64,000 nucleotides of DNA from Caballeronia sp. TF1N1. GTDB taxonomy: Bacteria; Pseudomonadota; Gammaproteobacteria; Burkholderiales; Burkholderiaceae. The stretch covers positions 186,001 through 250,000 of the forward strand of contig NZ_CP084628.1 in assembly GCF_022878925.1 (NCBI RefSeq), written 5' to 3'. Position 1 is the first letter of the stretch. Every line of letters starts with the position of its first letter. The notes beneath the pieces are model-generated. The model worked only from the letters and a program-made list of their open reading frames with translations, searched no databases and was not told the origin of the DNA. Shown here piece after piece: positions 477 through 19,783 of this stretch. A program made the position numbers and the translations under genes.

Positions 477-902
477 ATGACGACAAACAGGGCCTTTCAT
501 TGCGACAAACTCGTGCGGTTTCAGCACTGCGATCCTGCCGGCATCGTGTTCTATCCGCAATACTTCGTCCTGTTCCATGAGGTGCTCGAGGACTGGTTCA
601 ATGACGGACTGGGCGTGGATTACGCACATTTCATCGGCACACAAAGACTCGGCATTCCCACGGTGCATATTCAGGCGGATTTCGTCGCGCCGAGCAAGCA
701 TGGACAGACGCTTCGTTGCTCCCTGAAGGTCCGCGATCTGGGCAGAAGTTCGATCAAACTCAGTCTTGAAGCTGCTCTCGAAGATGAGTTGCGCGCGAAA
801 ATCGAGCAGACCGTCGTGCTGTTTTCGTTCGACGATCAGACTTCGGTCGCGCTGCCGGAAGACTTGAGGCAGCGCATGATGCAGTTCGCGGCGCAGGATT
901 GA
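477..902 (+). CDS. acyl-CoA thioesterase, 4-hydroxybenzoyl-CoA thioesterase type (hotdog fold)
   Basis: A 141-residue hotdog-fold protein. Near the N-terminus the run H-C-D-P-A-G-I-V-F-Y-P (Asp19) matches the catalytic motif of the 4HBT/YbgC thioesterases, in which this Asp supports hydrolysis of an acyl-CoA. The frame is open further upstream (GTG at 435), but GGAG at 466-469 is spaced seven bases before the ATG at 477, and the motif lies at the expected distance from that start. Cytoplasmic. The acyl substrate cannot be read from sequence; with no aromatic degradation genes next to it, a role in 4-hydroxybenzoyl-CoA hydrolysis is only one option. Confidence 0.8.
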   Translation: MTTNRAFHCDKLVRFQHCDPAGIVFYPQYFVLFHEVLEDWFNDGLGVDYAHFIGTQRLGIPTVHIQADFVAPSKHGQTLRCSLKVRDLGRSSIKLSLEAALEDELRAKIEQTVVLFSFDDQTSVALPEDLRQRMMQFAAQD

Positions 903-977
903 CCTTGAAAATCCACGCCGCGCGCATTGCCAAAGGCTTGATGGGCCAGAGCGTTACCTGAAGACAGCGACCGCATC

Positions 978-1751
978 TCACCAGCAAAGATAACCGCCGT
1001 CCGCCACGACGATGGACCCAGTCATCAAACTCGCGGCGTCGCTGGCAAGGAACAGAATGACGGACGCGATTTCGTCCACGCGTCCGAGGCGGCCCATCGG
1101 TGTGCCGCCTACCCAATACTGTCGCAAGTTCGGGTCCATCGATACCTTCCTGACGAGATCGGTATCGATATACGTCGGCGCAACCGCGTTGACCCGCACA
1201 CCGCGCGATGCCCATTCCACCGCGAGCGAGCGCGTCAGATGATGCACCGCCGCCTTTGACGCGTTGTAGTTCGCCTGCTCCTGCGGTCGCGTCGCGATGA
1301 ACCCCGCCATCGAACCGACGTTCACGATTGCCCCGCTGCCGCGTTCGAGCATCGATCTACCGAACGCGCGGCAACAGCGAAACAAGCCATTCAGATTCAC
1401 GTCGAGGACCTTGTTCCACACCTCATCCGACATCGTCTCCGCCGGCTCGTTTGAGATGGCGATGCCCGCGTTGTTGACGAGAATGTCGATCGCGCCGATA
1501 CGCGCGGCAATGTCATCGTGAATGCGCTGCGGCGCGGCCGGATCGGTCACGTCGAAGGGCACGCCGTGAGCCGCGAAGCCCTTCGTGTTCAAAGCATCGA
1601 CGGCGGCAGCGAGCGCGGCGGGATCGAGATCGGTGAGCACGACTTCGGCGCCTGCTTCGGCCAGCGCTTCGGCTGTCGCCTGGCCGATGCCGCGCGCCGC
1701 GCCCGTTACGACCGCGCGCTTGCCATCGAGTCTGAATTTGTCGAGATACAT
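978..1751 (-). CDS. SDR family NAD(P)-dependent dehydrogenase, likely polyol or sugar dehydrogenase
   Basis: Classical short-chain dehydrogenase of 257 residues: T-G-A-A-R-G-I-G at 16-23, Asp41 after beta-2 (suggesting NAD preference), N-N-A-G at 93-96, catalytic Ser147, Tyr162 and Lys166. The N-terminus M-Y-L-D-K-F-x-L-D-G is like that of sugar-alcohol dehydrogenases. It is the last gene of the long minus-strand operon starting at 11193, 22 bases after another SDR gene. With the FGGY kinase and ribose-type importer in the same operon, oxidation of an imported polyol or sugar is inferred; the exact substrate is unknown. Confidence 0.85.
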   Translation of the reverse strand: MYLDKFRLDGKRAVVTGAARGIGQATAEALAEAGAEVVLTDLDPAALAAAVDALNTKGFAAHGVPFDVTDPAAPQRIHDDIAARIGAIDILVNNAGIAISNEPAETMSDEVWNKVLDVNLNGLFRCCRAFGRSMLERGSGAIVNVGSMAGFIATRPQEQANYNASKAAVHHLTRSLAVEWASRGVRVNAVAPTYIDTDLVRKVSMDPNLRQYWVGGTPMGRLGRVDEIASVILFLASDAASLMTGSIVVADGGYLCW

Positions 1752-1773
1752 GGAATCTGCCTTGAGAAACGAG

Positions 1774-2535
1774 TCAACTCAGCACGATCCCGCCGCACAC
1801 GTTGAGCGATTGTCCGGTCACGAAAGCGGAGGCATCGGAGGCGAAGAAGCACACCGGCCCGGCCACGTCTTCGGGTTGTCCGAGCCGCGCGAGCGCGGTC
1901 TTGTCGACCCACTGCTTCGCGATTGCAGGGTCCTCGAGATTCGTGCGCCCCATGTCCGTCACGATAATGCCCGGACACACCGCGTTGGCCGTGATGCCGA
2001 ACGGGCCGATCTCCTGCGCGAGCACGCGCGTGAAGCCCATGACCGCCGCCTTCGATGCCGAGTAATGCGCTTGCAGCGGCGCGCCATGCTTGCCGCCAAT
2101 CGACGCGATATTCACGATGCGTCCGTACCCGCGCGCCTTCATGTGCGGCAACAAGGCTTGCGTCACGAGGAACGTGCCTTTCGCGTTGACATCGAGCACC
2201 GCATCCCATTCGTGCTCGGCGAGTTCATCCACCGACCGTGCGATCAGAATGCCCGCGTTATTGACGACGGCGTCGACCTGACCCGCCTGAGCGATGGCCG
2301 CCGCGATCATGTCCGTTACCTGCTGCTTGTCGCTGACATCGGCATAGAGCGCGAACGCGCGCCGCGACTTGCCGCGAATCTCTTTTGCCACGCCTTCGAG
2401 CGCATCGCGCTGCCGTTCGATATCGTTGACGACGACATCGAAGCCATCGTCGGCTAGTCCCAACGCGAGCGCCCGGCCAATGCCCCTGCTCGCGCCCGTC
2501 ACCAGCGCCACCCGTCCATTCGATGCTTTGCTCAT
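1774..2535 (-). CDS. SDR family NAD(P)-dependent dehydrogenase
   Basis: Second SDR of the operon, 253 residues, with T-G-A-S-R-G-I-G at 13-20, N-N-A-G at 92-95 and the catalytic set Ser145, Tyr158, Lys162. The C-terminus N-V-C-G-G-I-V-L-S is a usual SDR end with a Cys in place of the common Asp. It lies 49 bases after the importer permease gene and just before the other SDR. The two enzymes are not near-identical, so they probably act on successive or different positions of the substrate. Substrate unknown; family assignment is secure. Confidence 0.85.
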   Translation of the reverse strand: MSKASNGRVALVTGASRGIGRALALGLADDGFDVVVNDIERQRDALEGVAKEIRGKSRRAFALYADVSDKQQVTDMIAAAIAQAGQVDAVVNNAGILIARSVDELAEHEWDAVLDVNAKGTFLVTQALLPHMKARGYGRIVNIASIGGKHGAPLQAHYSASKAAVMGFTRVLAQEIGPFGITANAVCPGIIVTDMGRTNLEDPAIAKQWVDKTALARLGQPEDVAGPVCFFASDASAFVTGQSLNVCGGIVLS

Positions 2536-2584
2536 GATGATGTCCGACTCCTTGTTTCGTGATGTATTCGTGCACGTGAGGCGA

Positions 2585-3598
2585 TTAGCGGAAGAAGCGA
2601 ATCTCGCCGCGTAAGACCGCCAGCCCGACAGCCGCGATCATCACGATGCCGCGCACGATGTTCTGCAAATAGAACGGCGCGCCGATCAGATTCAGGCCGT
2701 TATCCAGCATGCCGATGATGACGACGCCGACCAGCGTGCCCTGAATGGTCGCGCGTCCCGGCTTGAATGCGGTCATGCCGAGGAACACGGCGGTGAGGCT
2801 GTCCATGAGGTAAGCATCGCCCGCACCGGATTGACCCGTGCCGAGTCGCGCGGTCAGCATCACGCCGCCGAGCGCCGCGCCCGCCGCCGACAGCACGAGC
2901 GCCGTGACACGCGCGCGGTTCACCTTGATGCCCGACAGACGCGCCGCCTGAATGTTCGCGCCCGTCGCGATGACGCTGCGCCCGAGCCGCGTTCGATTGA
3001 GCAGCACGTAAAAGACGAACACGGTAACGAGCGCAATGACGATAGGCATCGGGATCACGCCGAACACCGTGCCCTTGGCAATGGCGTAGAAGCTGTCGGG
3101 CATCTGCGCGTAGATTGAATCGCCGCCCGTGTACGCGTAATTGACACCGAGCGCGATGGGTCCCATCGCGAGCGTCGCGATCAGCGAGGGAATGCGCAGC
3201 ATGGTCACGAGCAGGCCGTTGACGAGCCCGATCACGACGCCCGAAACGATTGCCACTGCAATGGCAAGCGGCACTGGCAAGTGCGCCAGCACGAGCATGC
3301 CGGCGACGAGTACGCCCGCGAGACTCGCTGCCTGACCGATAGACAAGTCGAATTCGCCGCTCGCCACTGCCACGGTCAGCCCCGACGAGATGACCATCAG
3401 CACGGAGATCTGCACGAGCACATTGCTGATGTTGTCGATCGACACGAAGCGGTCGGTGCCGAGCGCGAACGCGATGAAAATGATCACCGCCGCCGCGACC
3501 GTGCCCCAGCGGCTCGCGAGATGACTGAAGTCGAAGCTGCGTGGCGCGTGAGCGGCGGGGTCTTCGGATCTTTTGGCGGCCAAGGTCTGTCCTTTCAT
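2585..3598 (-). CDS. ribose-type sugar ABC transporter permease (RbsC/AraH family)
   Basis: Inner-membrane permease of 337 residues with many hydrophobic segments from about residue 34 onwards. The cytoplasmic loop A-T-G-A-N-x-Q-A-A-R-L-S-G-I at 211-224 matches the conserved loop of the RbsC/AraH carbohydrate uptake family. Its start lies one base after the stop of the ATPase gene, showing tight coupling. It is one of three importer components (binding protein 5176-6285, ATPase 3600-5117) and should move the sugar or polyol that the downstream SDRs and the kinase act on. Confidence 0.9.
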   Translation of the reverse strand: MKGQTLAAKRSEDPAAHAPRSFDFSHLASRWGTVAAAVIIFIAFALGTDRFVSIDNISNVLVQISVLMVISSGLTVAVASGEFDLSIGQAASLAGVLVAGMLVLAHLPVPLAIAVAIVSGVVIGLVNGLLVTMLRIPSLIATLAMGPIALGVNYAYTGGDSIYAQMPDSFYAIAKGTVFGVIPMPIVIALVTVFVFYVLLNRTRLGRSVIATGANIQAARLSGIKVNRARVTALVLSAAGAALGGVMLTARLGTGQSGAGDAYLMDSLTAVFLGMTAFKPGRATIQGTLVGVVIIGMLDNGLNLIGAPFYLQNIVRGIVMIAAVGLAVLRGEIRFFR

Positions 3599-3599
3599 T

Positions 3600-5117
3600 T
3601 CAGTTCACCTCGAGCAAGAGTCTTGCTTCGGAAAATTCGGTGCGGTCGAGACATTCGCCCACCACGCCATCGGCGATGCAGTAAATGCGGTCGCATAGCT
3701 TGAGCATTTCCTCGAACTCGGCGCTCGCAATCAGCACGCTCGCGCCCGCCTTGACCAGTTCGTGAATCAGCGCATAGATTTCCGCCTTGCTGCCGACATC
3801 CACGCCTTCGGTCGGATTGTCGAGCAGCAGCAGCGGATGCTTCGCCGCGTGACTTCGGCCCATGCGAATCAGCCAGCGGCCGAACGCGACCTTCTGCTGA
3901 TTGCCGCCGGATAGCTGAAGCACGTCCTGCCCGATGCCGCTGCACTTGATACCCAGTTGCTTCACGGTGTCGTGCGCGAGCCCGCGCATGAGCGTGTGCT
4001 GCATGAAGCCGCCGCGGCTCGTTTGTTCGAGCGTGCCGGTCATCAGATTCTCTTCGACGGTCAATCCCGGAAAGAGCGCCTTGCGCAAGCGCTCATCGGC
4101 GACCAGGTACACGCCACGGCCGATCGCATCGGCGACATCGCGCGGCAATCCGCGTTTGCCATTGACGATGCATTCGCCCGTGACCTTCGCGCTCATCGAT
4201 CCCGCGAGCGCTTCCAGCACGCCGGTCTGCCCGCCGCCCATCACGCCAGCAATGCCGACGATCTCGCCCGCATGCACGACGAGATCGGGCACGTCGAGAT
4301 TGCCGATGCGCGCGTCTTGAATGCGCGTCGTGACAGTGTCGCGAGACGCGGAAGACGACCAGTTCTGATCCTCGATCCTGCGTCCGACCATCAGATGCAC
4401 CACTTCCTGCAGCGTCGTTTCGGCGACGAGGCCATCGTGCACTTTTGCGCCGTCCTTGAGCACGGCCACGCGATCGCACTGCTCGAAAATCTCGTTCAGG
4501 TGATGCGAGATGAAAAGAATCGACAAGCCGTGCGACTTGAGATCGCGCAGAAAGCTGAAGAGCTTTCGGCTTTCGTTGAGCGTGAGCGAGGCGGTCGGTT
4601 CATCGAGAATCAGAATGGCGGGCTCGCTCACCAGCGCCTTCAGGATGTCGAGAATCTTGTTCTCGCCGAGCGTGAGATCGCCGCATTCCCGGTCGAGATC
4701 GATATCGATGCCAAAGCGCTGCGCGAAGCGGCTCGCTTCGACTCGCAAGGCGCGCGAGCGGATCAGGCCGCCGCTCAACGGTTCGCGTCCGAGCATGATG
4801 TTCTCGGCGGCGGTCAGCGTCGAGATGACCGCGATCTGCTGATGCGCCACCGCGATGCCCGAGGCGAGCGCGTCGCCGACGCTCTTCATCGAGACCGGCT
4901 TGCCGTCGATACACAGCGTGCCTGCATCGGCTTGCTGCGCGCCGCAAATGATCTTGACCAGCGTGGATTTGCCCGCGCCGTTCGCGCCAACGAGCGCGAG
5001 CATTTCGCCGCCCCACAAGTCGAGATCGACGCCGCGCAGCGCCGGATTGCCGTGGAAGCTCTTTTCCACACCACGAGCGCTCAGGCGAGGGGTTCCCTTC
5101 GCCAGATTGTCATTCAT
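3600..5117 (-). CDS. sugar ABC transporter ATP-binding protein, tandem nucleotide-binding domains (RbsA family)
   Basis: A 505-residue double ATPase. The first domain has Walker A G-A-N-G-A-G-K-S-T at 44-52. The second has a degenerate Walker A (G-V-M-G-G-G-Q-T-G) and a clean L-S-G-G-N-Q-Q-K signature, as is usual for the CUT2/RbsA class, in which one site is degenerate. The start at 5117 is preferred over an upstream GTG at 5135 because AGGAGA lies eight bases before this ATG. Located between the binding-protein and permease genes of the same importer. Confidence 0.92.
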   Translation of the reverse strand: MNDNLAKGTPRLSARGVEKSFHGNPALRGVDLDLWGGEMLALVGANGAGKSTLVKIICGAQQADAGTLCIDGKPVSMKSVGDALASGIAVAHQQIAVISTLTAAENIMLGREPLSGGLIRSRALRVEASRFAQRFGIDIDLDRECGDLTLGENKILDILKALVSEPAILILDEPTASLTLNESRKLFSFLRDLKSHGLSILFISHHLNEIFEQCDRVAVLKDGAKVHDGLVAETTLQEVVHLMVGRRIEDQNWSSSASRDTVTTRIQDARIGNLDVPDLVVHAGEIVGIAGVMGGGQTGVLEALAGSMSAKVTGECIVNGKRGLPRDVADAIGRGVYLVADERLRKALFPGLTVEENLMTGTLEQTSRGGFMQHTLMRGLAHDTVKQLGIKCSGIGQDVLQLSGGNQQKVAFGRWLIRMGRSHAAKHPLLLLDNPTEGVDVGSKAEIYALIHELVKAGASVLIASAEFEEMLKLCDRIYCIADGVVGECLDRTEFSEARLLLEVN

Positions 5118-5175
5118 GTGTCTGTCTCCTGACACGGCGGGCCGGCGTGGATACGCGCGGCCGGCCCGCCGCCCA

Positions 5176-6285
5176 TCACATGCCGGCCACGGCGCGATCG
5201 CGATAGATGTAGTACAGATCTTTCGCGTTATAGGTCGGCTCGTTCGGCCCGGGGATATTCACGCCGCGCACCAAGAGAGGCGCGGGGAATTCAACGGTTG
5301 GAACCGGCACGAGCTTCTTCGCGTCGCCACCCTTCGCCACGATCTCGTTGATGAGCCAGCCGGTGTAGGCGCCCCAGACTTCGAAGGCCTGCGCCGTCGT
5401 GCAGATCAACGGATAGTTCGGCTTGCGCATGCGGTCGAGTGCCGTCGGATGCCCGTCGTGGCCGATCACCATGATCTTGTCCTGCATGCCGCGCGACATG
5501 ACGACTTCTGCCGCCGCCATGGCCGGTTCGTCCCACGGGCACCAGATCACATCGAGATCCTTGCCGTAGGTCGTGAGCCAGTCGTTGACGGTGTTCTGCG
5601 TCGCCTCGTAGAAACCGGAATACTGGATCACGCGTTCGTTCTTGAGCGAAATCCATTCGTTTTCCGTGAGGGCCGTCTTCATCACCTTGCCGCGCTTGCG
5701 CGTGCCGTGGTGAAAGTTCGCGATGATCGCGCACATGTTGGCCTTGGTCTTGCCCTGGGCCAATAACGTATCGATCATGAACTGCGAGGTCTGCGCGCTC
5801 ATTGCGTAGTTGTTGCTGGTGATGTCCGCAATAGCGGGCGCCTGCCATCCCGAGTCCAGACTGAAGAACGGAATCTTCGATGCCGTGAGGTGATCGAGCG
5901 CGCTCTTCGCCGCGGTCAACGTGCCGTACAGCACGAGAATGGCATCGGACTTCGCGGTGATCGCATCCTCGATCTGGCTCACGAGCTGACCCGGATCGCC
6001 CTTTGCATCGGTCTGCTTGATCTGCCAGGTCTTGTCGAGACCCGACTTCTTGAGCCACTGCTGCAGGCCGTTCCACGAGCGCTGGTCGGATTGCGCGGAC
6101 ATCTGCTGCGCCACCACCGCGATCTTCAGCGGCTTGCCGCCTTGCGGCGACGATGCCGGCGTTTGCGCGTGGGCGCTTGTCGCCCCGAACAGCATCTGGG
6201 CGAACTGCGTACCGCCGACGGCGGCCGCCATGCCGAGCAGACGGCGGCGCGAGAACTCCGGTTCCTGGCTGTTGCTGTCTTCCAT
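5176..6285 (-). CDS. sugar ABC transporter substrate-binding protein (periplasmic, Tat-type signal)
   Basis: A 369-residue periplasmic-binding-protein type I of the ribose/galactose group. The N-terminus carries S-R-R-R-L-L-G (12-18), then a hydrophobic run and A-H-A before Gln41, consistent with a twin-arginine signal cleaved after about residue 40. The mature start K-P-L-K-I-A-V-V and the later D-A-I-L-V-L-Y-G-T motif fit the family. The start at 6285 is set by AGGAGA just upstream; the frame remains open much further but that extension is an artefact over the E2 gene. It delivers substrate to the adjacent permease and ATPase. Confidence 0.9.
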   Translation of the reverse strand: MEDSNSQEPEFSRRRLLGMAAAVGGTQFAQMLFGATSAHAQTPASSPQGGKPLKIAVVAQQMSAQSDQRSWNGLQQWLKKSGLDKTWQIKQTDAKGDPGQLVSQIEDAITAKSDAILVLYGTLTAAKSALDHLTASKIPFFSLDSGWQAPAIADITSNNYAMSAQTSQFMIDTLLAQGKTKANMCAIIANFHHGTRKRGKVMKTALTENEWISLKNERVIQYSGFYEATQNTVNDWLTTYGKDLDVIWCPWDEPAMAAAEVVMSRGMQDKIMVIGHDGHPTALDRMRKPNYPLICTTAQAFEVWGAYTGWLINEIVAKGGDAKKLVPVPTVEFPAPLLVRGVNIPGPNEPTYNAKDLYYIYRDRAVAGM

Positions 6286-6314
6286 GTTTGTCTCCTGTTC
6301 TATTCGACTGCGTG

Positions 6315-7607
6315 TTATATGAAGAGCGCCGCCACCTTCTGCGGTTGATCCCAATGCGGCATGTGACCCGCCTGGGGGATGAAGTGCACGGGAATGTCCG
6401 GCCCTGCGCGGCTCGCGTGCTGCCATGGGATGATCTGATCGTCGAGCCCCCAGATCACGCGGGAAGGCGCGTCGAGCGCGGACAGTTCGGAGCGGATATC
6501 GATCTGCTGACGCCCGCTGCTGACGAGATTGCCCGCGAGCGCCGCCAGCGCGCCGCGCTTGCTGATGGCGCCCGCCATCTGATCGAGTTGTTGCGCGGAC
6601 AGAAGCGGCGGATTGAGCGCCGAGCGGCGCAGCAGATGCATTAGCCCGCCACCTTTTTGCACGTGCGCCATGCCGTCGATGAAGTCGTCGTCGATCTCCG
6701 TGCCGAATCCGGCGGGCGCGATCAAGGTCAGGCGCCGCACTTTCGACTTGAGCGCCGTTGCGACTTTCGTGGCGACCGCCGCACCCAGCGAATGCCCGGC
6801 GAGTTCGATGCCGCCGAGCCCTAGATCCTCGATCAGCGCGACGATCGCGGCAGCCATGCCATCCACGTCGGCGCTGTCGAAATCGGTGGCGCCGTGAGAA
6901 GGCAAGTCCGGTGCGATGACGTGCTTGCCACGCCGCTGCAACTGGCTTGCGAGCGCGGACCATACTTGCGCGTCGCCGGAGAAACCGTGCAGCAGCACGA
7001 GCGGGGCGCCGCTCGCGTTCGGCGCGCGCCATTCGCGATACGCCACGCGACCGCGCGGCAGATTGCGATAGAGCACGCCTTCTGCCGAGACTTCGCGCGC
7101 CTGATTTGCATCGCCGACGTTACCCGTGCCGTTCACGCGCGCTTCGACATCGTGGCGTTCTATGCGCCCGCGTCGTCCCGTTCCGGCGATGTCGTCGAGC
7201 GCAATACCGCCTTGCCGCGCCACGCGTCGTGCGGCAGGCGTGGCGCGCAAGCCGGTCGTGACGTCCTGGCGGGTGCTCGCTGCCTGCGAACGCATTTCAG
7301 GCGCAGGGGCAGCGGCAACGGCAGGCGCGGCGGCGGCGGCCTCCTCGGGCACGGCGCTGCTCTCTTCGCCGATCACGTCGTATTCGCCGAGCATGCCGCC
7401 GACATCGACGTCCTCGCCCACTTCGGCGACGATCTTGCGCAACACGCCATCGGCGAGCGCGGGCATCTCCACGACCGTCTTGTCCGTTTCGATTTCGACG
7501 AGCGTCTCGCCGCGCGTGAAAGACTCGCCCGGCTTCTTGAACCACTCGACCACGCGCCCCTGCTCCATCGTTTCGCCCAGGCGCGGCAGCAACAGGGACT
7601 TGCTCAT
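6315..7607 (-). CDS. E2-like component: lipoyl domain, E3-binding domain and alpha/beta hydrolase (AcoC type)
   Basis: A 430-residue protein in three parts. A lipoyl domain (about 1-80) has the lipoylation motif E-T-D-K with Lys43. A short peripheral-subunit-binding segment begins A-T-P-A-A-R-R-V-A-R. The C-terminal alpha/beta hydrolase contains L-L-H-G-F-S and the nucleophile elbow G-H-S-L-G-A-A. It lacks the chloramphenicol-acetyltransferase-like domain of pyruvate dehydrogenase E2; this architecture is known from AcoC of acetoin dehydrogenase complexes. The ATG at 7607 overlaps the E1beta stop (ATGA), indicating translational coupling. It should carry the acyl group from E1 to CoA. Confidence 0.85.
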   Translation of the reverse strand: MSKSLLLPRLGETMEQGRVVEWFKKPGESFTRGETLVEIETDKTVVEMPALADGVLRKIVAEVGEDVDVGGMLGEYDVIGEESSAVPEEAAAAAPAVAAAPAPEMRSQAASTRQDVTTGLRATPAARRVARQGGIALDDIAGTGRRGRIERHDVEARVNGTGNVGDANQAREVSAEGVLYRNLPRGRVAYREWRAPNASGAPLVLLHGFSGDAQVWSALASQLQRRGKHVIAPDLPSHGATDFDSADVDGMAAAIVALIEDLGLGGIELAGHSLGAAVATKVATALKSKVRRLTLIAPAGFGTEIDDDFIDGMAHVQKGGGLMHLLRRSALNPPLLSAQQLDQMAGAISKRGALAALAGNLVSSGRQQIDIRSELSALDAPSRVIWGLDDQIIPWQHASRAGPDIPVHFIPQAGHMPHWDQPQKVAALFI

Positions 7608-8590
7608 GCCGGCACCATGTTCGAGATCATGTCGACGATGAGTTGCGCCGTCGGAATACTCGCGCTTTCGAGCGCGGGCGACACCGAGATCGGCACGTCT
7701 TCGCCCGCGAGCCTGAGCACCGGATCCTCGAGGAAGTCGAAGCACTCCTCCGAGATGCGCGCCGCGATCTCGGAGGCGACGCCGCACGTCGAAGCCGACT
7801 CGGTGACGACGACCGCGCGCCCCGTGCGATTCACCGACGCCACCACGGTTTCCATATCGAGCGGATTGAGCGTGCGCAAGTCGATCACTTCGACATCGAC
7901 GCCATTGCGCGCCAGCGCCTCGGCGGCTTCGAGCGCGACATACACCATGCGCGAATAGGTGACGAGCGTGACGTCCTTGCCGCTGCGCCGCACCGCTGCC
8001 TTGCCCCACGGCGCGATGGGCGTGGTCAAGTCCGCGTCTTCCTTGCGTGCATAGAGCGCCTTGTGCTCGATGAACACTACTGGGTCCGGCAAAGTCAGGC
8101 TGTGACGCAGCAGATGGTAGGCATCGGAAGCCGTGGCGGGCATGGCAAGGCGCAAGCCGGGCGTGTGCATGGCGAGCGCTTCGAGACTCTGCGAATGCTG
8201 CGCGCCCGCCGACCGGCCCGTGCCGCCTTGCGTGCGCAAGACCATCGGCACGCCGATCTGTCCGCCGAACATATAGCGGATTTTCGCGGCCTGATTGCCG
8301 ACCTGATCCATCGTCATGCCGAGAAAGTCCACGTACATCAATTCCGCGACCGGTCGCAGGCCGGTCATCGCCGCGCCGACCGCCGCGCCGACGATGGCGG
8401 GCTCGCTGATCGGCGTATCGATCAAACGCGCGGCGCCGAATTCCTTGATGAGGTCTTTCGTGACGCCATACGCGCCGCCGTACACGCCGACTTCCTCGCC
8501 GATCACGACGACGGTGTCATCGGCCTGCATGGCGTCGCGCAACGCCTGGCGCAGCGCGTCGCGGTAAGTGATTCTGGTCAGACTGGACAT
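7604..8590 (-). CDS. thiamine-diphosphate-dependent dehydrogenase E1 component, beta subunit (acetoin dehydrogenase type)
   Basis: A 328-residue transketolase-like pyrimidine-binding subunit. It shows G-E-E-V-G-x-Y-G-G-A-Y-G-V-T-K-x-L, then D-T-P-I-S-E-P-A-I-V-G-A-A-V-G-A-A, and A-Q-H-S-Q-S-L-E-A, all typical of the E1beta chain of 2-oxoacid and acetoin dehydrogenases. AGGAG is spaced six bases before the ATG at 8590, so the longer open frame is rejected. One base separates it from the alpha-subunit stop, and it overlaps the E2 gene by four bases. The pairing with an AcoC-like E2 points to an acetoin-like alpha-hydroxyketone rather than pyruvate. Confidence 0.88.
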   Translation of the reverse strand: MSSLTRITYRDALRQALRDAMQADDTVVVIGEEVGVYGGAYGVTKDLIKEFGAARLIDTPISEPAIVGAAVGAAMTGLRPVAELMYVDFLGMTMDQVGNQAAKIRYMFGGQIGVPMVLRTQGGTGRSAGAQHSQSLEALAMHTPGLRLAMPATASDAYHLLRHSLTLPDPVVFIEHKALYARKEDADLTTPIAPWGKAAVRRSGKDVTLVTYSRMVYVALEAAEALARNGVDVEVIDLRTLNPLDMETVVASVNRTGRAVVVTESASTCGVASEIAARISEECFDFLEDPVLRLAGEDVPISVSPALESASIPTAQLIVDMISNMVPA

Positions 8591-8591
8591 A

Positions 8592-9614
8592 TCAGCTCCT
8601 TGCCAGCACGCGTTCCAGACGCGAGCGAACGGATTCCGGTTGCGGCTCGCCGACGCCGTAGACATCCTCGAACATGGTGTCGAGCGCAGGCGCGGCGGAG
8701 TTCGCGGTGAAGTCGATCGCGTCGCTCATCTCGCGGCTGATCTCGGCATCGAGTGCGTCGATCTCGGCGGCGGTCACCGCGTGGCGCTCGATCAGCGTGC
8801 CGCGCGCACGGACGATCGGATCGCGCTTGCGTCCCACTTCTTCTTCATCGGGCGTGCGGTACGGACTCTTGTCCATGCGGCCATGACCGAAGAAGCGGAA
8901 GCACGAGATCGCCATGAAGCCGGGCTTGCCAGCGCGCGCGCCCGAGACCAGGTCTTCCGCCACGTCGAGCACGGCTTCGACATCCTCGCCATCCACCATG
9001 CCCGTGCGCAGGCCGAACGCCTCGGCGCGCTTGTCGAAGGCGGTGGAGCGTGTCGCCTTGTCGATCCGCGTGCCCATGCCATATTGATTGTTGATGCACA
9101 CGAAAAGCACCGGCAGGTCCCACAGCGCCGCCATGTTCATGCTTTCGTAGAGGATGCCTTGCTGCATGGCGCCATCGCCGAAGAACGCCACCGATATCGC
9201 ATCTTTCTTCAGGAGCTTGTAGCTCAGGCCCGCGCCGACCACATGCGAGATGCCGCCGCCGACGATCGCATTCGCGCCGAGGTGACCCAACGCCATGTCG
9301 GCGATATGCATCGAGCCGCCCTTTCCACGGCAGTACCCGGAAGCCTTGCCGCCGATTTCCGCCATCATCCGGTTGGGCTCGGCGCCGCGCGCGAGAAAGA
9401 TGCCGTGGCCGCGATGGTGCGTCGTGAAGCTGTCCTGCGGCTGCAACGCGCCGACGACACCCGCCGCCGCGCCCTCTTCGCCGATGGACAGATGCAGCAT
9501 CGACCCCGCCGACAGCTCGCGCGCATACAGCTCGGCGACATGTTCCTCGAAGGTTCTGATGCGGCGCATCGTGCGATAAAGGTCTAGCAATGGAGGCTTG
9601 GATTGCGAAAGCAT
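8592..9614 (-). CDS. thiamine-diphosphate-dependent dehydrogenase E1 component, alpha subunit (acetoin dehydrogenase type)
   Basis: A 340-residue E1alpha chain. The thiamine diphosphate motif is present: G-D-G at 146-148, then N-N at 175-176. The H-H-R-G-H segment (66-70) and the K-G-G-S-M-H loop near 98-103 are also typical of E1alpha subunits. Together with the beta subunit it would decarboxylate a 2-oxoacid or cleave an acetoin-like substrate and pass the acyl unit to the lipoyl arm of the E2. It follows the kinase gene by 76 bases. No dihydrolipoamide dehydrogenase (E3) gene lies in this operon. Confidence 0.88.
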   Translation of the reverse strand: MLSQSKPPLLDLYRTMRRIRTFEEHVAELYARELSAGSMLHLSIGEEGAAAGVVGALQPQDSFTTHHRGHGIFLARGAEPNRMMAEIGGKASGYCRGKGGSMHIADMALGHLGANAIVGGGISHVVGAGLSYKLLKKDAISVAFFGDGAMQQGILYESMNMAALWDLPVLFVCINNQYGMGTRIDKATRSTAFDKRAEAFGLRTGMVDGEDVEAVLDVAEDLVSGARAGKPGFMAISCFRFFGHGRMDKSPYRTPDEEEVGRKRDPIVRARGTLIERHAVTAAEIDALDAEISREMSDAIDFTANSAAPALDTMFEDVYGVGEPQPESVRSRLERVLARS

Positions 9615-9690
9615 GGTTTCGACTCTGATGGAGGGTTCTCGATGAATGCGCGGACCGGTATCTCGGCGTGCGGGCTTCGACCGGCCTCGC

Positions 9691-11193
9691 TTACGCGGAA
9701 GGTCGCTCGCTAAAGCCGCGCAGGGCCGGATAAAGCTTCTGATACCGTTCGTAAATCTCGTCGTAGCGGGCGGCTTCGGCTGCTCTCGGTTCTATGCGGC
9801 GGCCCGGTTTCACCATGGCCGAAATACCTTCGTCGATGGAGCCGAAATGGCCGACGCCCGTCGCGGCAAGAATGGCCGCGCCGAGCGACGGCGCTTCGCT
9901 CGCCTTGGGCACGCTCACCGGCAAGCCCGCGATATCGGCATGGAGTTGCAGCCACAGGTCGGACGCGACCACGCCACCGCCGATGGTGATTTCACTCGCG
10001 GGAAAGCCCGCCTGCGCCATGCGCTCGAAGATCAGGCGCGAGCCGAAGCAGATGCCTTCGATGGTCGCGCGAAACAGATGCGGCATGCCGTGCGCGAGCG
10101 TCAGTCCGACGAAGGCGCCGCGCGAGAGCGCATCGACATGAGGTGTGCGGTTGCCCTGAAAATGATCTAGCGCGAGCAGACCGTCGCAGCCCGGCGCGAT
10201 CTCGCGGGCTTCGTCGTTGAGCGCCTTGAGATCGAGATTGCCGCCCGCGAGCCGCCGCAACCAGTTGACGATGGAGCCCGTCGATGTCTGTCCGCCTTCG
10301 ATGATGTGCCGGCCAGGATAGACGGCATCGGCATACGTGCCCCACAGGCCCTTGGCGGCGGCCGAGCGGTCGGAGACGCCGAACATCAGATGCGACGACC
10401 CGGTGATGAGCGCCACTTGTCCCGGCTTCGCAACACCGATTCCGATCATGCCGATGAGCGCATCCGCGCCGCCTTGCACGACCTTGACGCTCTGCGGCAA
10501 CTGCAAATGTTCGGCGGCACGCGCGCTCAACGTGCCGACCACTTCGCCTGGCGCGATAACGGCGTCGGGCCACTTGTCGAGCAGCGAATCGAGCTTCAGC
10601 GCCGCGAGCAGACTCTTCGCGTAACCTCCGCGCTCGGTCGAGTAATGCCAGCGAATCGACGCGTTATCGAGGCTCGCGCAACGCCGGCCCGTGAGCCGCA
10701 AGTTCATGAAGTCCTGATACTCGCAGATGGTCGCCGCACGCTCGTAGATCTCGGGCTCGTGACGCGCGATCCACAATGCTTTCGGGATCATCCATTCCGC
10801 CGATACCGGACCTTCGCCCGCGCCGTTGACGACGAGCGCCGGATCGCCGGTGGCGAGCACGTCGGCGGCTTCGGCTTCGGCGCGTACATCCATCCAGATG
10901 ATGGCCGGACGTAGCGCCGCGCCTTGCGCGTCGAGCGCGACGACGCTGCAACTCGTGGTGGCAAGCGCCACGGCATCGATGTCGGCGGGCGCGATACCCG
11001 CTTCCTTCACGGCCTGCCGAACCGCCGTGCCCATGGCATTCCACCAGTCTTCCGGATTCTGCTCGGCGCGCGCGCCCGCCGAAAACTGCGTGGCGTACGG
11101 CTGCGCGGCCGATCCAAGACAGGAGCCGGTCAAATCGAACACGCGTGCACGAATGCTTTCCGTTCCACCATCGACGCCGATTACGTGGCTCAT
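9691..11193 (-). CDS. FGGY-family carbohydrate kinase
   Basis: A 500-residue sugar or polyol kinase with the two-domain FGGY layout. The N-terminal phosphate-binding motif is D-G-G-T-E-S at 8-13. The Q-G-G-A-D-A-L region supplies the likely catalytic Asp, and G-G-G-V-V-A-S-D near the C-terminus belongs to the nucleotide-binding fold. GGAGA upstream fixes the ATG at 11193 rather than one 18 codons earlier. It is the first gene of the minus-strand operon. Family members phosphorylate ketoses, polyols or tetruloses; which one applies here is not visible. Confidence 0.88.
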   Translation of the reverse strand: MSHVIGVDGGTESIRARVFDLTGSCLGSAAQPYATQFSAGARAEQNPEDWWNAMGTAVRQAVKEAGIAPADIDAVALATTSCSVVALDAQGAALRPAIIWMDVRAEAEAADVLATGDPALVVNGAGEGPVSAEWMIPKALWIARHEPEIYERAATICEYQDFMNLRLTGRRCASLDNASIRWHYSTERGGYAKSLLAALKLDSLLDKWPDAVIAPGEVVGTLSARAAEHLQLPQSVKVVQGGADALIGMIGIGVAKPGQVALITGSSHLMFGVSDRSAAAKGLWGTYADAVYPGRHIIEGGQTSTGSIVNWLRRLAGGNLDLKALNDEAREIAPGCDGLLALDHFQGNRTPHVDALSRGAFVGLTLAHGMPHLFRATIEGICFGSRLIFERMAQAGFPASEITIGGGVVASDLWLQLHADIAGLPVSVPKASEAPSLGAAILAATGVGHFGSIDEGISAMVKPGRRIEPRAAEAARYDEIYERYQKLYPALRGFSERPSA

Positions 11194-11317
11194 GCTGTCT
11201 CCGTGTCTCCAGCCATCGTCTTGCACATTTGTCGTCATGCGCGACATTTGTGATGAGTTTGATTTTCGGGGTGGGCTTTGTCAAGATGGTGTGCATAAAC
11301 AGAGGGGAAACACCTAA
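11194..11317. promoter_or_regulatory. divergent promoter region with a direct repeat, candidate operator for the SorC-type regulator
   Basis: This 124-base gap separates the kinase operon from the regulator. It holds two copies of ACATTTGT at 11225-11232 and 11244-11251, 19 bases apart in the same orientation, within an A/T-richer stretch. Regularly spaced repeats are plausible operator half-sites for the adjacent SorC-family protein; this is inferred from position only. Confidence 0.35.
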
Positions 11318-12334
11318 ATGCTGGAGCTGAACCTTGCGCACGAGTCCGACGACGCGCTGATCGTCCGCGCTGCGTGGCTGTATTACGTCGGTGGTTTGAA
11401 TCAGGAGCAGACGGCCTCGCGGCTCGGTCTGCATCGCAGCCGCGTCAATCGCCTGCTGTCCGAGGCGCGCGATCGCGGGCTCATCAACGTGACGATCAAC
11501 CACGAATCCGCGCGCGATATCGAAGTCGAACAGGCCATTGCGCGTTGCTTCGGCCTCGACTTCTGCATCGCCACGCCAACCTTGGGATTCGCCGACGGGC
11601 CCGCCGATCCCAAAGCGGATCGCATTCGCGCGGCCATCAGCCGGCGCGCGGTCGGCGCGGCGGGCGCGAGCTTTCTGAAGGGCAAGCTGCTGGACGGGCC
11701 CATTACCGTGGGCGTGAGCTGGGGACGCACGATAGAACAAGTGGCGACGCAGCTTGCGGGCGTGCGCAATCCGCAGGCGCGATTCGTCTCGCTGCTCGGG
11801 TCGCTCAAGCGGAACTCGACATCGAACCCGTTCGAAGTCGTGCAGTTCTTCGCGGCGCGGACCGGCGGCGAGGTGCACTTTTTGCCCGTTCCGTTCATCG
11901 CCAATTCGGTGGCGGACCGGAAGGTCTTTTTCGAGCAGCGCATCGTGCAGGACGCAATGCATCTCGCGCAGAACGCCGATCTTTATCTCATCAGCGTGGG
12001 CGAACTCGAGGAAACGTCGGTGCTGCGGACACAGGACATCATGACGGCGGACGAGCTGCGCAATATCCAGGAAAGCGGCGCCGTCTGCGATTCGCTCGGC
12101 AAGCTGTTCGATATCGACGGCCGCGAGATCAAGCATCCGCTCAGCGAACGGACGGTCGCCATCGCCACGGACGAATTACGCGGTCGCAATGTCGTGCTTC
12201 TGACGGGCGGTCTGGAAAAAGTACGCGCGACGATTGCGTTGCTGCGCAGTGGCATCGTCAAGGGGCTCGTTATCGACGGCGACACGGCGCTCGCGCTGGC
12301 GAAGTCGATGCAGTTGACTGACGGATTGGCATGA
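11318..12334 (+). CDS. SorC/DeoR-type sugar-binding transcriptional regulator
   Basis: A 338-residue regulator with an N-terminal helix-turn-helix (about 28-52: Q-T-A-S-R-L-G-L-H-R-S-R-V-N-R-L-L) and a large C-terminal effector domain containing G-V-S-W-G-R-T and V-V-L-L-T-G-G near its end, as in the SorC sugar-binding domain. GAGGGGA precedes the ATG. It is transcribed away from the kinase operon and is the obvious candidate to control it in response to a phosphorylated sugar or polyol. Confidence 0.85.
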   Translation: MLELNLAHESDDALIVRAAWLYYVGGLNQEQTASRLGLHRSRVNRLLSEARDRGLINVTINHESARDIEVEQAIARCFGLDFCIATPTLGFADGPADPKADRIRAAISRRAVGAAGASFLKGKLLDGPITVGVSWGRTIEQVATQLAGVRNPQARFVSLLGSLKRNSTSNPFEVVQFFAARTGGEVHFLPVPFIANSVADRKVFFEQRIVQDAMHLAQNADLYLISVGELEETSVLRTQDIMTADELRNIQESGAVCDSLGKLFDIDGREIKHPLSERTVAIATDELRGRNVVLLTGGLEKVRATIALLRSGIVKGLVIDGDTALALAKSMQLTDGLA

Positions 12335-12411
12335 CGCGTGAATTGGGCGCTCGGGGAAGGCAGAACAATCCGTCCAAGCCGGGCGCCCAGCAAACAAAGC
12401 GGTTGCGCTCC

Positions 12412-12417
12412 TATAAT
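12412..12417 (+). promoter_or_regulatory. candidate -10 box (TATAAT) for the lyase-fold gene
   Basis: A perfect TATAAT lies 29 bases before the ATG of the exported lyase-like gene. No good -35 hexamer is found at the usual spacing (bases 12389-12394 read AGCAAA), so this is a suggestive match only. Confidence 0.35.
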
Positions 12418-12446
12418 CGCGACTTCCCAATCCGCGAATTCCTACC

Positions 12447-13952
12447 ATGAGATTGCTTGGACGCGCATCGCTTGCTGCTGTCGTGTTTGCCATGTTTGCC
12501 GTGTTGCCGGCGTTTGCGCAGCAGGTTCCACCTCACGATGAATTCTTCTGGCTCGGCGAGATCAACAAGGCGACCGTCGTCATCAACACGAGCGAAGGCT
12601 TGCTCGACAAATCGATGGCGCCGCGCCTGGCCGCTGGCGTCGCCAAGGTGATCGCCGACGCCGACCAGCCTGGCGCGAAGCGACCGCGAACCGTCATTAC
12701 CTTCGAGCCGCTTCTGATCAAGGCAGCGGGCGAAGACATCACGCTACTGCACGCCGGACGCTCCAGTCAGGACATGCACGCGACTTACCGTTCCGCGATC
12801 CTGCGCGACGACCTGCTCAATCTCGCCGATCAGCTCAACACCACGACCGCCACCATCGTGCGCCTCGCCGACAAATACAAGAGCGTGGTCGTGCCGAACT
12901 ACACGAACGGCGTGGCCGCGCAGCCCAACAGCTATGGCCATTACTTGCTAGGCTTTGCCGCCGGCCTCGACCGCGACGCGCAGCGAATTCGCGAGACATA
13001 CAAGCGCGTGGACCGTTCGTCGATGGGAACGACAGTGCTGAACGGTACGAGTTGGCCGCTGGATCGCGAGCGCATGGCGCAGTATCTCGGCTTCAATGCG
13101 CTCGTCGACAACGCGTACGACGCGTCGCAGATTTCTTCCGTCGATGAACCCGTGGAGGCTGGTGCGGTCGTCACGAGCGTGGCGCTGCATACCGGCGCCT
13201 TCATTCAGGACGTGATGACGCAATACGCCGAATCGCGCCCTTGGATTCTCTTGCAGGAAGGCGGCGCCAATACGTACGTATCGAGCGCCATGCCGCAAAA
13301 GCGTAACCCGGGGCTTTTGATTCGCACGCGCTCGGACGCATCGACGGCGATCTCGCAGGCGGAAGGCGTCGTGATGCAAGCGCATAACCTGCCGCCGGGC
13401 ATGAGCGATCCGAAGGACGTGAAGGCCAACAACGAGATGGTCGAAAGCGGCATTGCAGCGCTCAAGGGCTTCGACGAGGTGCTGAACTCGCTCGTCATCG
13501 ACCCGAACCGCGCACTTGAAGAGCTCAATAGCGACTGGACGGCATCGCAGGAAGTGGCCGATGTCCTCATGCGCAAGTACAAACTGCCGTTCCGGGTCGG
13601 CCATCATTTTGCGTCGAACGTGGTGGAATATGCGCGGCAGAAGGACATCAAGCCGCTCGACTTTCCGTACGCCGATGCGCAGCGCATCTACAGGCAAACG
13701 GTCGAAGGCACGCCCTACGCCGGCGATTTTCCGATGAGCGAAGCCGAGTTTCGCTCGACGCTGGACCCGGTGGCGATCGTGAACGATCGCGCGACCGTGG
13801 GCGGCCCGCAGCCTTCGGAAATGACGCGCATGCTGAAAGATGCGAATGCGCGTATCGCCGAGCAGGACAAGTGGATCAAGAGCAATCGCGCGCATATCGC
13901 GAGTTCGCTGGCGCGGCTCGACAATGACTTCGGCAAGATGATTGGGCATTGA
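12447..13952 (+). CDS. exported argininosuccinate-lyase/fumarase-superfamily protein
   Basis: A 501-residue protein with a clear Sec signal peptide (A-F-A before Gln25) fused to a fumarase/aspartase-superfamily lyase. Region 1 is H-A-G-R-S-S-Q-D-M-H (102-111), close to the H-T-G-R-S-R-N-D of argininosuccinate lyase. Region 3 is S-S-A-M-P-Q-K-R-N-P (279-288), the superfamily signature. In region 2, Y-T-N-G-V-A-A-Q-P (152-160) has Asn154 where the lyases have a catalytic His (T-H-L-Q). An exported member with that residue changed is unlikely to be the arginine-biosynthetic enzyme. Likely periplasmic; the reaction is unknown. A porin gene follows on the same strand after 323 bases. Confidence 0.8.
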   Translation: MRLLGRASLAAVVFAMFAVLPAFAQQVPPHDEFFWLGEINKATVVINTSEGLLDKSMAPRLAAGVAKVIADADQPGAKRPRTVITFEPLLIKAAGEDITLLHAGRSSQDMHATYRSAILRDDLLNLADQLNTTTATIVRLADKYKSVVVPNYTNGVAAQPNSYGHYLLGFAAGLDRDAQRIRETYKRVDRSSMGTTVLNGTSWPLDRERMAQYLGFNALVDNAYDASQISSVDEPVEAGAVVTSVALHTGAFIQDVMTQYAESRPWILLQEGGANTYVSSAMPQKRNPGLLIRTRSDASTAISQAEGVVMQAHNLPPGMSDPKDVKANNEMVESGIAALKGFDEVLNSLVIDPNRALEELNSDWTASQEVADVLMRKYKLPFRVGHHFASNVVEYARQKDIKPLDFPYADAQRIYRQTVEGTPYAGDFPMSEAEFRSTLDPVAIVNDRATVGGPQPSEMTRMLKDANARIAEQDKWIKSNRAHIASSLARLDNDFGKMIGH

Positions 13953-15444: not shown

Positions 15445-15474
15445 GATGCAGCCACGATAGCTGGCTGCATCTTT
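15445..15474 (+). terminator. rho-independent-type terminator after the porin gene
   Basis: A perfect 10-bp stem (GATGCAGCCA with TGGCTGCATC) and a seven-base loop are followed by only three T residues. It starts 20 bases after the porin stop and reaches the end of the convergent MFS gene. Confidence 0.7.
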
Positions 15475-16639
15475 ACCGAGCGTCGCTTTGCTTGGCCGTC
15501 ACGGTCCGCGCGCATAACGGCACGAGACACAGCAAAACGACGACGACCCAGAAGGCGCCGGGAAGGCCCACTTGTCCCGCTATGAAGCCGATTCCCGCAG
15601 GCCCTGACAGAATCCCGGCGTAACCCACTATCGTCACCGCGGCTACCGCAAGCGCGGGTGGCATGAGCCGCTGCGTTCCGCTTCGACGATAAAGAATCGG
15701 GACCGTGTTCGATGCTCCAAGCCCCACCAGCACGAAGCCGCCCAGCGCAACGAAGGCGATGGGAACCGTGAGCAGAAGCACGAACCCGACGATGGTCAGC
15801 ACGCCGCCCCAGAACATGACCGCGCGCTCGCCGAGCCGCTTGATGACGGCATCGCCGCATAAACGCCCGCCTGTCATTGCAATCGAAAAGAGGACGTATC
15901 CGAGCCCCGCTTCGTTCTTGCCGACGAGACCCGTGTCCGAGACGAGCAGCGCGCTCCAGTCGAGCACCGCGCCCTCGGCGAGGAACGTGATGGCAGCGAG
16001 AATGGCGAGCAACAGCACGATGCCGCGCGGCACGGCAAAGATAGGCCCGCCTTCGCTCTTTGCATAAGGCAGAAGTCTGGGCGTTGCGAGGACCAACGTT
16101 CCGAGCACGAGTGCCGAGCAAAGGAGGGTGCCCGCCAGCGTGCCGACATGCATCGACAGCAGGAACGTCATGAGACTCGATCCGGCGAACCCACCTACGC
16201 TGAACAGGGCATGGAACCCCGACATGAGCGGCCGTCCCGCGTCACGTTCGACTTCGACGGCATGAACGTTCATTGCCACTTCGAGCGAGCCTAGCGATGC
16301 ACCGAACAAAAACAGCGCTATGCCTAATTCAGCCGGCGTATTGACGACCGTGAGAAACGGCAAGGTCAGGACGAGACCCACGCCTCCCGCCACGATCACC
16401 GGCTTGCTGCCGTAGCGCGCGGTGAGCATGCCCGCGAGAAGCATCGCCAGGACCGAGCCTAAGCCGATGCACAAAAGCAGCAGGCCGAGTGTGGTGTCGT
16501 CGACACCGAGCCTGCTCTTCGTGAACGGCACGAGAGGCGCCCACGACGCAATGCTGAAGCCGGCCACGAGAAACGCAAGACGTGTGGCAAGACGCGTTCC
16601 AGAGCGATTGGACGATACTCCCAGATTGGCCTCGCTCAT
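15473..16639 (-). CDS. MFS transporter (YbjJ-like)
   Basis: A 388-residue major facilitator with about twelve hydrophobic segments, a S-R-L-G-V loop after TM1 and T-A-R-Y-G-S-K-P in the TM2-3 loop. It resembles the YbjJ-like branch of sugar or drug transporters. Its ATG overlaps the stop of the upstream DeoR-family gene by four bases (ATGA), so the two are translationally coupled and the regulator probably controls the transporter. Substrate unknown. Confidence 0.85.
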   Translation of the reverse strand: MSEANLGVSSNRSGTRLATRLAFLVAGFSIASWAPLVPFTKSRLGVDDTTLGLLLLCIGLGSVLAMLLAGMLTARYGSKPVIVAGGVGLVLTLPFLTVVNTPAELGIALFLFGASLGSLEVAMNVHAVEVERDAGRPLMSGFHALFSVGGFAGSSLMTFLLSMHVGTLAGTLLCSALVLGTLVLATPRLLPYAKSEGGPIFAVPRGIVLLLAILAAITFLAEGAVLDWSALLVSDTGLVGKNEAGLGYVLFSIAMTGGRLCGDAVIKRLGERAVMFWGGVLTIVGFVLLLTVPIAFVALGGFVLVGLGASNTVPILYRRSGTQRLMPPALAVAAVTIVGYAGILSGPAGIGFIAGQVGLPGAFWVVVVLLCLVPLCARTVTAKQSDAR

Positions 16640-17412
16640 GATTTTTCCACCGCAGTCATCACCGTTGGGCCGGACTTCGACAGCGCCGCGAGCACATCAC
16701 CCGGTGCATCTTCCTCAATGATAAGGAAGTCGATTTCCTTCATGTTCGCCACGCTATAAGGCGCGCGCGCATGAAGTTTCGCGGTCGTGGCGAGCACGAC
16801 CTTCTGCGCGCTTGCAGCGACGACCGCGCGTTTGAACGCAGCGTCGCTCAAGCCGAATGCGCCGATGCCGCGTGACGTCGATACCGCGCACGCGCCGATG
16901 AAGCACAGATCGAAGCTCATGCGCCTGACGAACTCCACCGAAGTGGGATCGACGCTGCCGCCTACGTGTTGATCGACCAAGCCGCCGGTCATGACGAGTT
17001 GCAGGTCCGTTCGTCGCAACATCGCAGCAGCGATATCGACGGAGTTCGTGACCACCGTGAGCTCGAAATCCGCAGGCAGGATGTTCGCGAGCGCGAGGTT
17101 GGTGCTGCCGCTGTCGAGGAACAGGAACTGGCCCCGCTGAATGAGGGACGCGGCCGTTTGCGCGAGGATGCGCTTGCGGTCGGCGTCCATGTCGATGCGC
17201 GCCGCCATGGGAAACGCAGCCGGCAAAACCGGCAGCGCGCCGCCGTATACGCGACGGCATTTGCCTTCGGACGCCAGCGCCCGAAGATCGCGGCGGATGG
17301 CGTCTTCCGATACGGCGAATTCGACGGCGAGATTAGCGGCGACGAGCGACTGGCCAGAAGACAGACGGCTGGCCAGTTCGTCGCGACGGGCGAGTGGGAG
17401 ATCGGGGTTCAT
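16636..17412 (-). CDS. DeoR/GlpR family transcriptional regulator
   Basis: A 258-residue repressor. The N-terminal winged helix holds V-S-E-D-A-I-R-R-D-L (34-43) followed by R-R-V-Y-G-G-A-L, the DeoR signature. The C-terminal DeoRC sensor domain has D-S-G-S-T-N and T-G-G-x-V. The ATG at 17412 is preferred over 17454 because the domain starts at the usual distance, and the extra codons overlap a repeat cluster that looks like an operator. Coupled to the MFS gene 15473-16639. Confidence 0.88.
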   Translation of the reverse strand: MNPDLPLARRDELASRLSSGQSLVAANLAVEFAVSEDAIRRDLRALASEGKCRRVYGGALPVLPAAFPMAARIDMDADRKRILAQTAASLIQRGQFLFLDSGSTNLALANILPADFELTVVTNSVDIAAAMLRRTDLQLVMTGGLVDQHVGGSVDPTSVEFVRRMSFDLCFIGACAVSTSRGIGAFGLSDAAFKRAVVAASAQKVVLATTAKLHARAPYSVANMKEIDFLIIEEDAPGDVLAALSKSGPTVMTAVEKS

Positions 17413-17425
17413 GCGTGCAGCATAC

Positions 17426-17463
17426 CGTGCACGAACAAGAATGTAAACGTGCATGAACGTGCA
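17426..17463. promoter_or_regulatory. CGTGCA repeat cluster, candidate operator of the DeoR-family regulator
   Basis: Three copies of CGTGCA lie upstream of the regulator start: 17426-17431, 17448-17453 and 17458-17463. The first two extend to CGTGCACGAAC and CGTGCATGAAC, starting 22 bases apart (about two helical turns). Position and repetition suggest autoregulation; the binding protein is inferred. Confidence 0.45.
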
Positions 17464-17475
17464 TTCCCCAACTCT

Positions 17476-19760: not shown

Positions 19761-19783
19761 GCGGTTTCCTTTCCGACGCCGCG

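Follow-up and report, generated by a model that had tools for sequence, protein, structure and literature searches.

Several described systems resemble, each in part, the operon considered here, a set of sugar-import, sugar-kinase and thiamine-dependent dehydrogenase genes in a 64 kb window (the whole stretch of DNA that was analyzed, from contig C3 of the 7.07 Mb genome of Caballeronia sp. TF1N1). Acetoin dehydrogenase (AcoABC) shares with it the E1alpha/E1beta fold, the E2 lipoyl and alpha/beta-hydrolase domains and the expected product, acetyl-CoA. 1-Deoxy-D-xylulose 5-phosphate (DXP) synthase, as well as pyruvate dehydrogenase (PDH) and acetoin dehydrogenase when they synthesize 1-deoxyketoses, involve the same bond and the same hydroxyethyl-thiamine diphosphate (ThDP) intermediate that we invoke below, whereas what we propose here is a cleavage that would support growth and in which lipoyl and CoA would capture the acetyl unit. 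The dihydroxyacetone phosphate (DHAP) shunt, consisting of MtnK, MtnA and the aldolase Ald2, also deals with a deoxypentose and serves the salvage of 5-deoxyribose and methylthioribose (PMC6079011, PMC10986504); the shunt aldolase splits a 1-phosphate to DHAP and an aldehyde, whereas the window operon, with neither mtnK, mtnA nor an aldolase gene in the Pfam search, is not a DHAP-shunt operon. Finally, the D-ribulose systems Rbl and Aau use a sugar ABC importer, to which Rbl adds an FGGY kinase, and the binding protein AauA binds D-ribulose; unlike in our operon, no E1 or E2 is named for them, and phosphorylated D-ribulose enters the pentose phosphate pathway (PMC12307932).

We propose, with a probability of slightly under one half (about 0.47), that the window operon encodes a catabolic pathway that leads from a deoxypentose or deoxypentitol through a 1-deoxyketulose and its phosphorylation to an oxidative split into acetyl-CoA and a triose phosphate. 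The ABC importer would take up a sugar or sugar alcohol of the deoxypentose type, the two short-chain dehydrogenases/reductases (SDRs) would convert it to a 1-deoxyketulose (CH3-CO-CHOH-...), and the FGGY kinase would phosphorylate the far end of the latter; E1 with ThDP would then attack the methyl ketone, breaking the C2-C3 bond and leaving an acetyl unit that would move via the E2 lipoyl arm to CoA. For a pentulose, the split would release acetyl-CoA and glyceraldehyde 3-phosphate; as these already belong to central metabolism, no further genes would be needed, and the E3 component would be borrowed from another complex. In functional terms, this reaction would be the reverse of a DXP-synthase-type carboligation, rendered irreversible through lipoyl oxidation. 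The bond and the intermediate are known in the synthetic direction because PDH and acetoin dehydrogenase are reported to form 1-deoxyketoses, which lends support to the 1-deoxyketose intermediate and the acetoin-dehydrogenase-type split to acetyl-CoA envisaged in a preliminary description of the locus. That description knew of no pathway with this gene set, and none, nor any for 1-deoxyketose catabolism, was recognized in the titles and abstract openings of the open-licence literature searched.

The open reading frames (ORFs) and a Pfam search bear out the layout described previously, nine intact, tightly spaced genes of the named families on the minus strand opposite a SorC-type regulator (Table 1), and change the gene bounds only slightly, with E1beta starting at 8590 and E2 at 7607; these two genes overlap by 4 bases (ATGA). 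A longer kinase frame starts at 11247; the shorter one is favored because the operator boxes discussed below would otherwise lie within the coding frame or overlap its beginning. No E3 gene was found among the operon genes by ORF and Pfam analysis.

Table 1. Coordinates of the operon, its facing regulator and the operator boxes in the window
Feature	Positions	Strand	Pfam match or remark
FGGY sugar kinase, ribulokinase/xylulokinase-like (core)	9691..11193	-	PF00370/PF02782
E1 alpha, thiamine-dependent dehydrogenase (core)	8592..9614	-	PF00676, 219 bits
E1 beta (core)	7604..8590	-	PF02779, PF02780
E2 with lipoyl, E3-binding and alpha/beta-hydrolase acyltransferase domains (core)	6315..7607	-	PF00364, PF02817, PF12697
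Periplasmic sugar-binding protein (SBP)	5176..6285	-	
ABC ATPase, ribose/arabinose type, two domains	3600..5135	-	PF00005
ABC permease	2585..3598	-	PF02653
SDR2	1774..2535	-	PF13561
SDR1	978..1751	-	PF13561
SorC/DeoR-type regulator with sugar-binding domain	11318..12334	+	PF04198, 171.8 bits
Operator box 1, ACATTTGT	11225..11232	+	between kinase and regulator
Operator box 2, ACATTTGT	11244..11251	+	19 bp from box 1

So could the presence of a dehydrogenase complex in a sugar operon be a matter of chance? The gene set described from this one stretch was sought around E1alpha relatives in other genomes (such stretches carry L numbers below), and in the 80 loci compared, the best 80 of 195 relatives found in a contig scan, the kinase, E1alpha, E1beta and E2 genes occur together in 71, and along with a SorC-type regulator in 64, so that chance grouping is excluded. 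Individually, E1beta is present in 79 of these loci, E2 in 76, and the kinase and the SorC-type regulator in 71 each, counts that are conditional on E1alpha similarity and in which a gene was scored anywhere in the available stretch, some maps being short; in particular, six of the loci without a kinase (L021, L026, L055, L062, L064 and L078) stop near the core. In the window's own taxonomic surroundings, the gene set is rare: with the source genome included each time, the kinase is detected (E<=1e-80) in 3 of 249 genomes of the family, one match being only 38% identical, and E1alpha (E<=1e-90) in 3 of 299 relatives and 3 of 398 genomes of the phylum. The closest E1 relatives of the window come from Caballeronia, and in the tree of concatenated E1alpha and E1beta, Caballeronia falls among alphaproteobacterial rows; therefore it is likely that this genus acquired the core horizontally. 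The SDR2 proteins of the alphaproteobacterial loci show mostly 64-76% identity.

Among the families listed, E2 alone of the operon subunits passes an equivalog cut-off, that of AcoC (NF011457, 334.9 bits against 307), and E1beta passes the PDH-E1beta subfamily model. We reject PDH identity because E1alpha falls short of the PDH equivalogs TIGR03182 (311.7 of 393.85 bits) and TIGR03181 (193.2 of 411.35); E2 carries an alpha/beta-hydrolase domain in place of the 2-oxoacid acyltransferase domain. The E2 consensus of 76 rows keeps the ETDK lipoyl motif along with the GHS, D and GHM motifs; in Sinorhizobium meliloti Ak57 (L146:10976-12294), the E2 gene is annotated in two pieces, one as an alpha/beta hydrolase and the other as a hypothetical protein.

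The match to AcoC is what one would expect of a plain acetoin (or acetaldehyde) dehydrogenase that landed in a sugar operon by chance and that, in the relatives, oxidizes the acetaldehyde released by the 5-deoxyribose aldolase. The DHAP shunt indeed yields acetaldehyde from 5-deoxyribose, and a CMD/AhpD-like protein accompanies both the present core (35 of the 80 loci) and a Paracoccus aco operon. Nevertheless, we consider this explanation quite improbable, given the linkage to the kinase, the presence of a separate, canonical acoABC in the same genome (L136, C3:688207-691309; its AcoC scores 491.8 bits) and the distinctness of the E1 subunits, which are 38-47% identical to those of AcoABC (38% for E1alpha and 43% for E1beta against the genome's own AcoA and AcoB). 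In a tree of the concatenated E1 subunits (89 rows, quick method, SH-aLRT support only; L141, eight near copies and rows without one subunit omitted), 77 rows form one long-stemmed clade (SH-aLRT 100) apart from the 8 AcoAB rows. Furthermore, the window E2 differs in having an E3-binding domain, and the neighborhood consists of the kinase, the ABC importer, the SDRs and the SorC regulator in place of acoX, acoR and the butanediol dehydrogenase gene. Membership in canonical acetoin dehydrogenase is thus rejected on the strength of the separate acoABC and the distinct E1 clade. The small CMD/AhpD-like protein (L065:13494-13832 and 34 other loci) conserves a CEDCILYH motif in the core loci and is also found beside a canonical aco operon (L159:11921-12250), a companion common to some operons of both kinds; by analogy with mycobacterial AhpD, it may take part in electron exchange with the lipoyl arm.

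A further feature of the clade is a loop of E1alpha, GH[AG]R[MK]DKSPYR, that is present in all 87 clade rows (84 distinct loci, three rows being second copies), whereas the seven canonical AcoA rows read GHFEGDAQTYR. Within this loop, R246 and K249 are invariant in the 87 rows and are replaced by E and A, respectively, in the seven AcoA; in E1beta, R126 and S127, located 6 and 5 residues ahead of the conserved His132, are specific to the clade (85 of 85 rows). The aligned loop is the counterpart of the human PDH loop that holds His263 and Ser264. The changes in the two subunits would suit a substrate that is polar or anionic, for example a sugar phosphate. A second class of sugar-linked E1/E2 complexes (L140, L157:5294-13909 and L158:1-11319) has E1s that fall outside the clade and display K/R and R at the positions of R246 and K249; the L140 loop is GHSKSDRNRYR, and those of L157 and L158, from other sugar operons, are similarly basic. 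A SorC-type regulator and sugar transporters are annotated in L157 and L158, and L140 has a SorC-like regulator (compared with window proteins only); unlike in the window, the neighbors include an oxidoreductase, Lpd and a class II aldolase in L157, and an oxidoreductase and PTS genes in L158. The sequence in L141, with the loop GALKGSAFGYR, is probably not an E1alpha.

The kinase looks ribulokinase-like. Its best NCBIfam matches, XylB (313.7 of the 380.25 bits needed) and ribulokinase PRK04123 (289.6 of 428), are both below the cut-offs, but it contains the ribulokinase-like stretches EWM-P-K (EWM..K) and EGGQ that are missing from Escherichia coli XylB as aligned. All 71 kinase rows share the motif T[SC]C[ST][VI]V, which may correspond to a D-ribulokinase signature of similar form. 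The combination of a ribulokinase-like kinase with the invariant basic residues of the E1 loop makes it most likely that the kinase acts ahead of the complex, yielding a triose phosphate, and thus disfavors the order originally suggested, in which the complex acts on a 1-deoxyketose without phosphate and releases, besides acetyl-CoA, a free aldose for the kinase; in some relatives, DhaKL could phosphorylate this aldose instead. This order is unlikely in our assessment, even if it agrees with the uncharged hydroxyketone that is the substrate of acetoin dehydrogenase: FGGY kinases mostly use ketoses and polyols, and DhaK and DhaL appear on only 9 of the 80 locus maps, DhaK being unseen on the other 71, some of them short. 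Triokinase, a homolog of DhaK/DhaL, phosphorylates glyceraldehyde, so these 9 maps speak for the later action of a kinase.

The core is combined with exchangeable front ends, which suggests, as far as gene comparison goes, that these converge on a common ketose. In Type I (the window, L019, L020, L035, probably L021, and L043, in which no kinase is seen), the order is kinase-E1-E2-importer-SDRs; in Type II, represented by Rhizobium-, Brucella- and Paracoccus-like loci among others, it is importer-E1-E2-CMD-kinase-SDRs; Type III has no SDRs and instead includes DhaKL, an aldo-keto reductase, an importer whose binding protein is RhaS/LsrB-like, and a ketose 3-epimerase that resembles xylose isomerase and scores 157 bits against D-psicose 3-epimerase (cut-off 300). 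The epimerase is encoded in 13 of the 80 loci, immediately before E1alpha on the maps of L072, L079, L080, L088 and L093, and SDR2 is found in none of the 13, a pattern that would follow if the two front ends were alternative routes to a single ketose. The SDRs, previously cast as the makers of the 1-deoxyketose, keep that role in our proposal, but as a replaceable front end rather than a part of the core (SDR2 in 49 and SDR1 in 42 of the 80 loci).

The binding proteins bear on the nature of this ketose. A RhaS/LsrB-like (D-ribulose-type) protein is present in 10 of the 13 epimerase loci; L084 and L095 are without it (L095 has an allose-type one), and the L096 stretch ends early. In these 10 loci, the protein is related to the D-ribulose-bound AauA (209 bits for L072), and the K, W and E of the AauA pocket are kept in the Type III proteins, with the H retained in most rows. 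Accordingly, an ordinary ketulose 5-phosphate might be cleaved to glycolyl-CoA and triose phosphate, a reading with which the ribulokinase-like kinase also agrees; moreover, the description of AauA mentions no contact with the C1 hydroxyl, which means that the absence of this oxygen could not be read from AauA (PMC12307932). We nevertheless regard this as improbable because ribulose 5-phosphate needs no complex of this kind to join the pentose phosphate pathway and because no glycolate or glycolyl-CoA enzyme was recognized in family scans of 20 neighbor proteins (most other flanking genes stayed without a family name). The same binding proteins, together with the relatedness of the SorC regulator to LsrR (104.5 bits) and of the kinase to LsrK (176 bits), bring to mind an Lsr-like degradation of autoinducer-2 (DPD) that would end in acetyl-CoA and triose phosphate. 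This appears highly improbable: the kinase scores higher against XylB and ribulokinase, the Type III binding protein is closer to AauA than to LsrB (209 vs 92-95 bits), and the L072 protein does not conserve, as aligned, the LsrB pocket residues D, D-Q and P. With the kinase far below the LsrK equivalog cut-off (176 of 528 bits) and the pocket not conserved in L072, we do not assign the operon to the Lsr system; no lsrF or lsrG was named among the neighbors scanned, in which no family search was aimed at them.

A case for a deoxy sugar comes from the neighbors of the core in other genomes. Among 26 genomes that hold the core, mtnA was found (E<=1e-60) in 18, and in 9 of the 26 it is located on the same contig, less than about 25 kb from the core (L058, L072, L074, L077, L080, L081, L083, L093 and L096), whereas random placement predicts 0.25 linked cases among the 18; the 9 loci represent about five lineages, and the probability of 4 or more of 18 is 9e-5. 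In L058, the core module has as its immediate neighbor a module of SorC regulator, epimerase, MtnK (475 bits, cut-off 275), MtnA (428 bits, cut-off 279) and class II aldolase; we count two modules because a further SorC regulator, that of the core module, is encoded on the opposite strand between the mtn genes and the core. Similarly, in L148-L151 (stretches beside L072, L081, L080 and L083), mtnK, mtnA, a SorC-type regulator, an aldolase and a reductase adjoin the core module. Thus, some relatives of the core are linked to 5-deoxyribose salvage, and the idea of a deoxy-sugar substrate, proposed from this locus by inference, is strengthened to a comparative case.

A shared regulatory element points in a similar direction. 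The box ACATTTGT occurs just twice across the window, both copies being located between the kinase and the regulator, and the box or its complement is found near the regulator start (350 bases before to 150 after) in 54 of 72 loci, compared with 2.9% of 720 random stretches from the same loci; where two boxes lie within 60 bp of each other (L019-L098), the spacing is 19 bp in 29 of 30 pairs. A box also stands about 80 bp ahead of mtnK in L148, L149 and L150, with none in L151. In E. coli, MtnR represses the DHAP shunt, and the site CAAAT-N9-ATTTG has been proposed for it (PMC12632272); the likeness of ACATTTGT to a half-site is suggestive only, and the spacing differs.

Several observations weigh against the proposed deoxypentose pathway. 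SDR2, the front end of the window, is in none of the 9 mtnA-linked loci; mtnA was not detected at E<=1e-60 in 8 of the 26 genomes, including the nearest relative, L019 (which counts against the acetaldehyde explanation as well), and in the rest of the 18 genomes with mtnA it lies elsewhere or the contig is too short to tell (L079). The source genome's own mtnK-mtnA is on another contig (C2:730155-732456), and no box occurs near these genes (L160, L162). Neither SDR2 nor the epimerase is on 18 of the 80 locus maps, and the epimerases of L058, L084 and L095 belong to a neighboring module outside the core operon. The kinase is absent from L095 even though the flanking genes are kept, and was not found on the L043 and L089 maps. 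The SBP of the window does not belong to the ribulose-binding type, and the fold neighbors of its model are tied, so that no ligand can be deduced from them; the placement of alpha 246-250 toward the substrate derives from PDH structures. No protein of the clade is known to have an assigned ligand or activity, and none came to light in the literature searched.

A narrower version of the deoxypentose pathway, which we consider rather doubtful, would make the complex a catabolic 'reverse DXP synthase' that splits DXP (or its ribulose epimer) oxidatively into acetyl-CoA and glyceraldehyde 3-phosphate, allowing growth on excreted 1-deoxypentuloses or 5-deoxypentitols; by-products of radical-SAM and isoprenoid metabolism would thereby be linked to central metabolism. 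1-Deoxyketoses are known mainly as precursors of isoprenoids and vitamins and as side products, and would gain a dedicated catabolic fate if the pathway is real. Many alphaproteobacteria and a few Caballeronia would then use a thiamine-lipoyl complex of the acetoin dehydrogenase type to split a sugar phosphate, and genes now annotated as encoding pyruvate or acetoin dehydrogenases would have their annotation corrected. The proposal names at once a testable set of substrates for the importer, the kinase and the SorC regulator.

Scans of positions 850-12450 for promoters and terminators provided no usable signal, with 1 promoter-like site (2.2 expected) and 14 terminator-like sites (8.2 expected). 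Directly past the regulator, the window encodes a lyase of the argininosuccinate/fumarase family (12447-13952, plus strand; PF00206, ASL_C2) with an apparent secretion signal at its start. Farther on, a separate minus-strand cluster (15473-20752) contains two MFS transporters, a DeoR regulator, a PhyH dioxygenase and a weak xylose-isomerase-like barrel (28.8 bits against a cut-off of 31.1).

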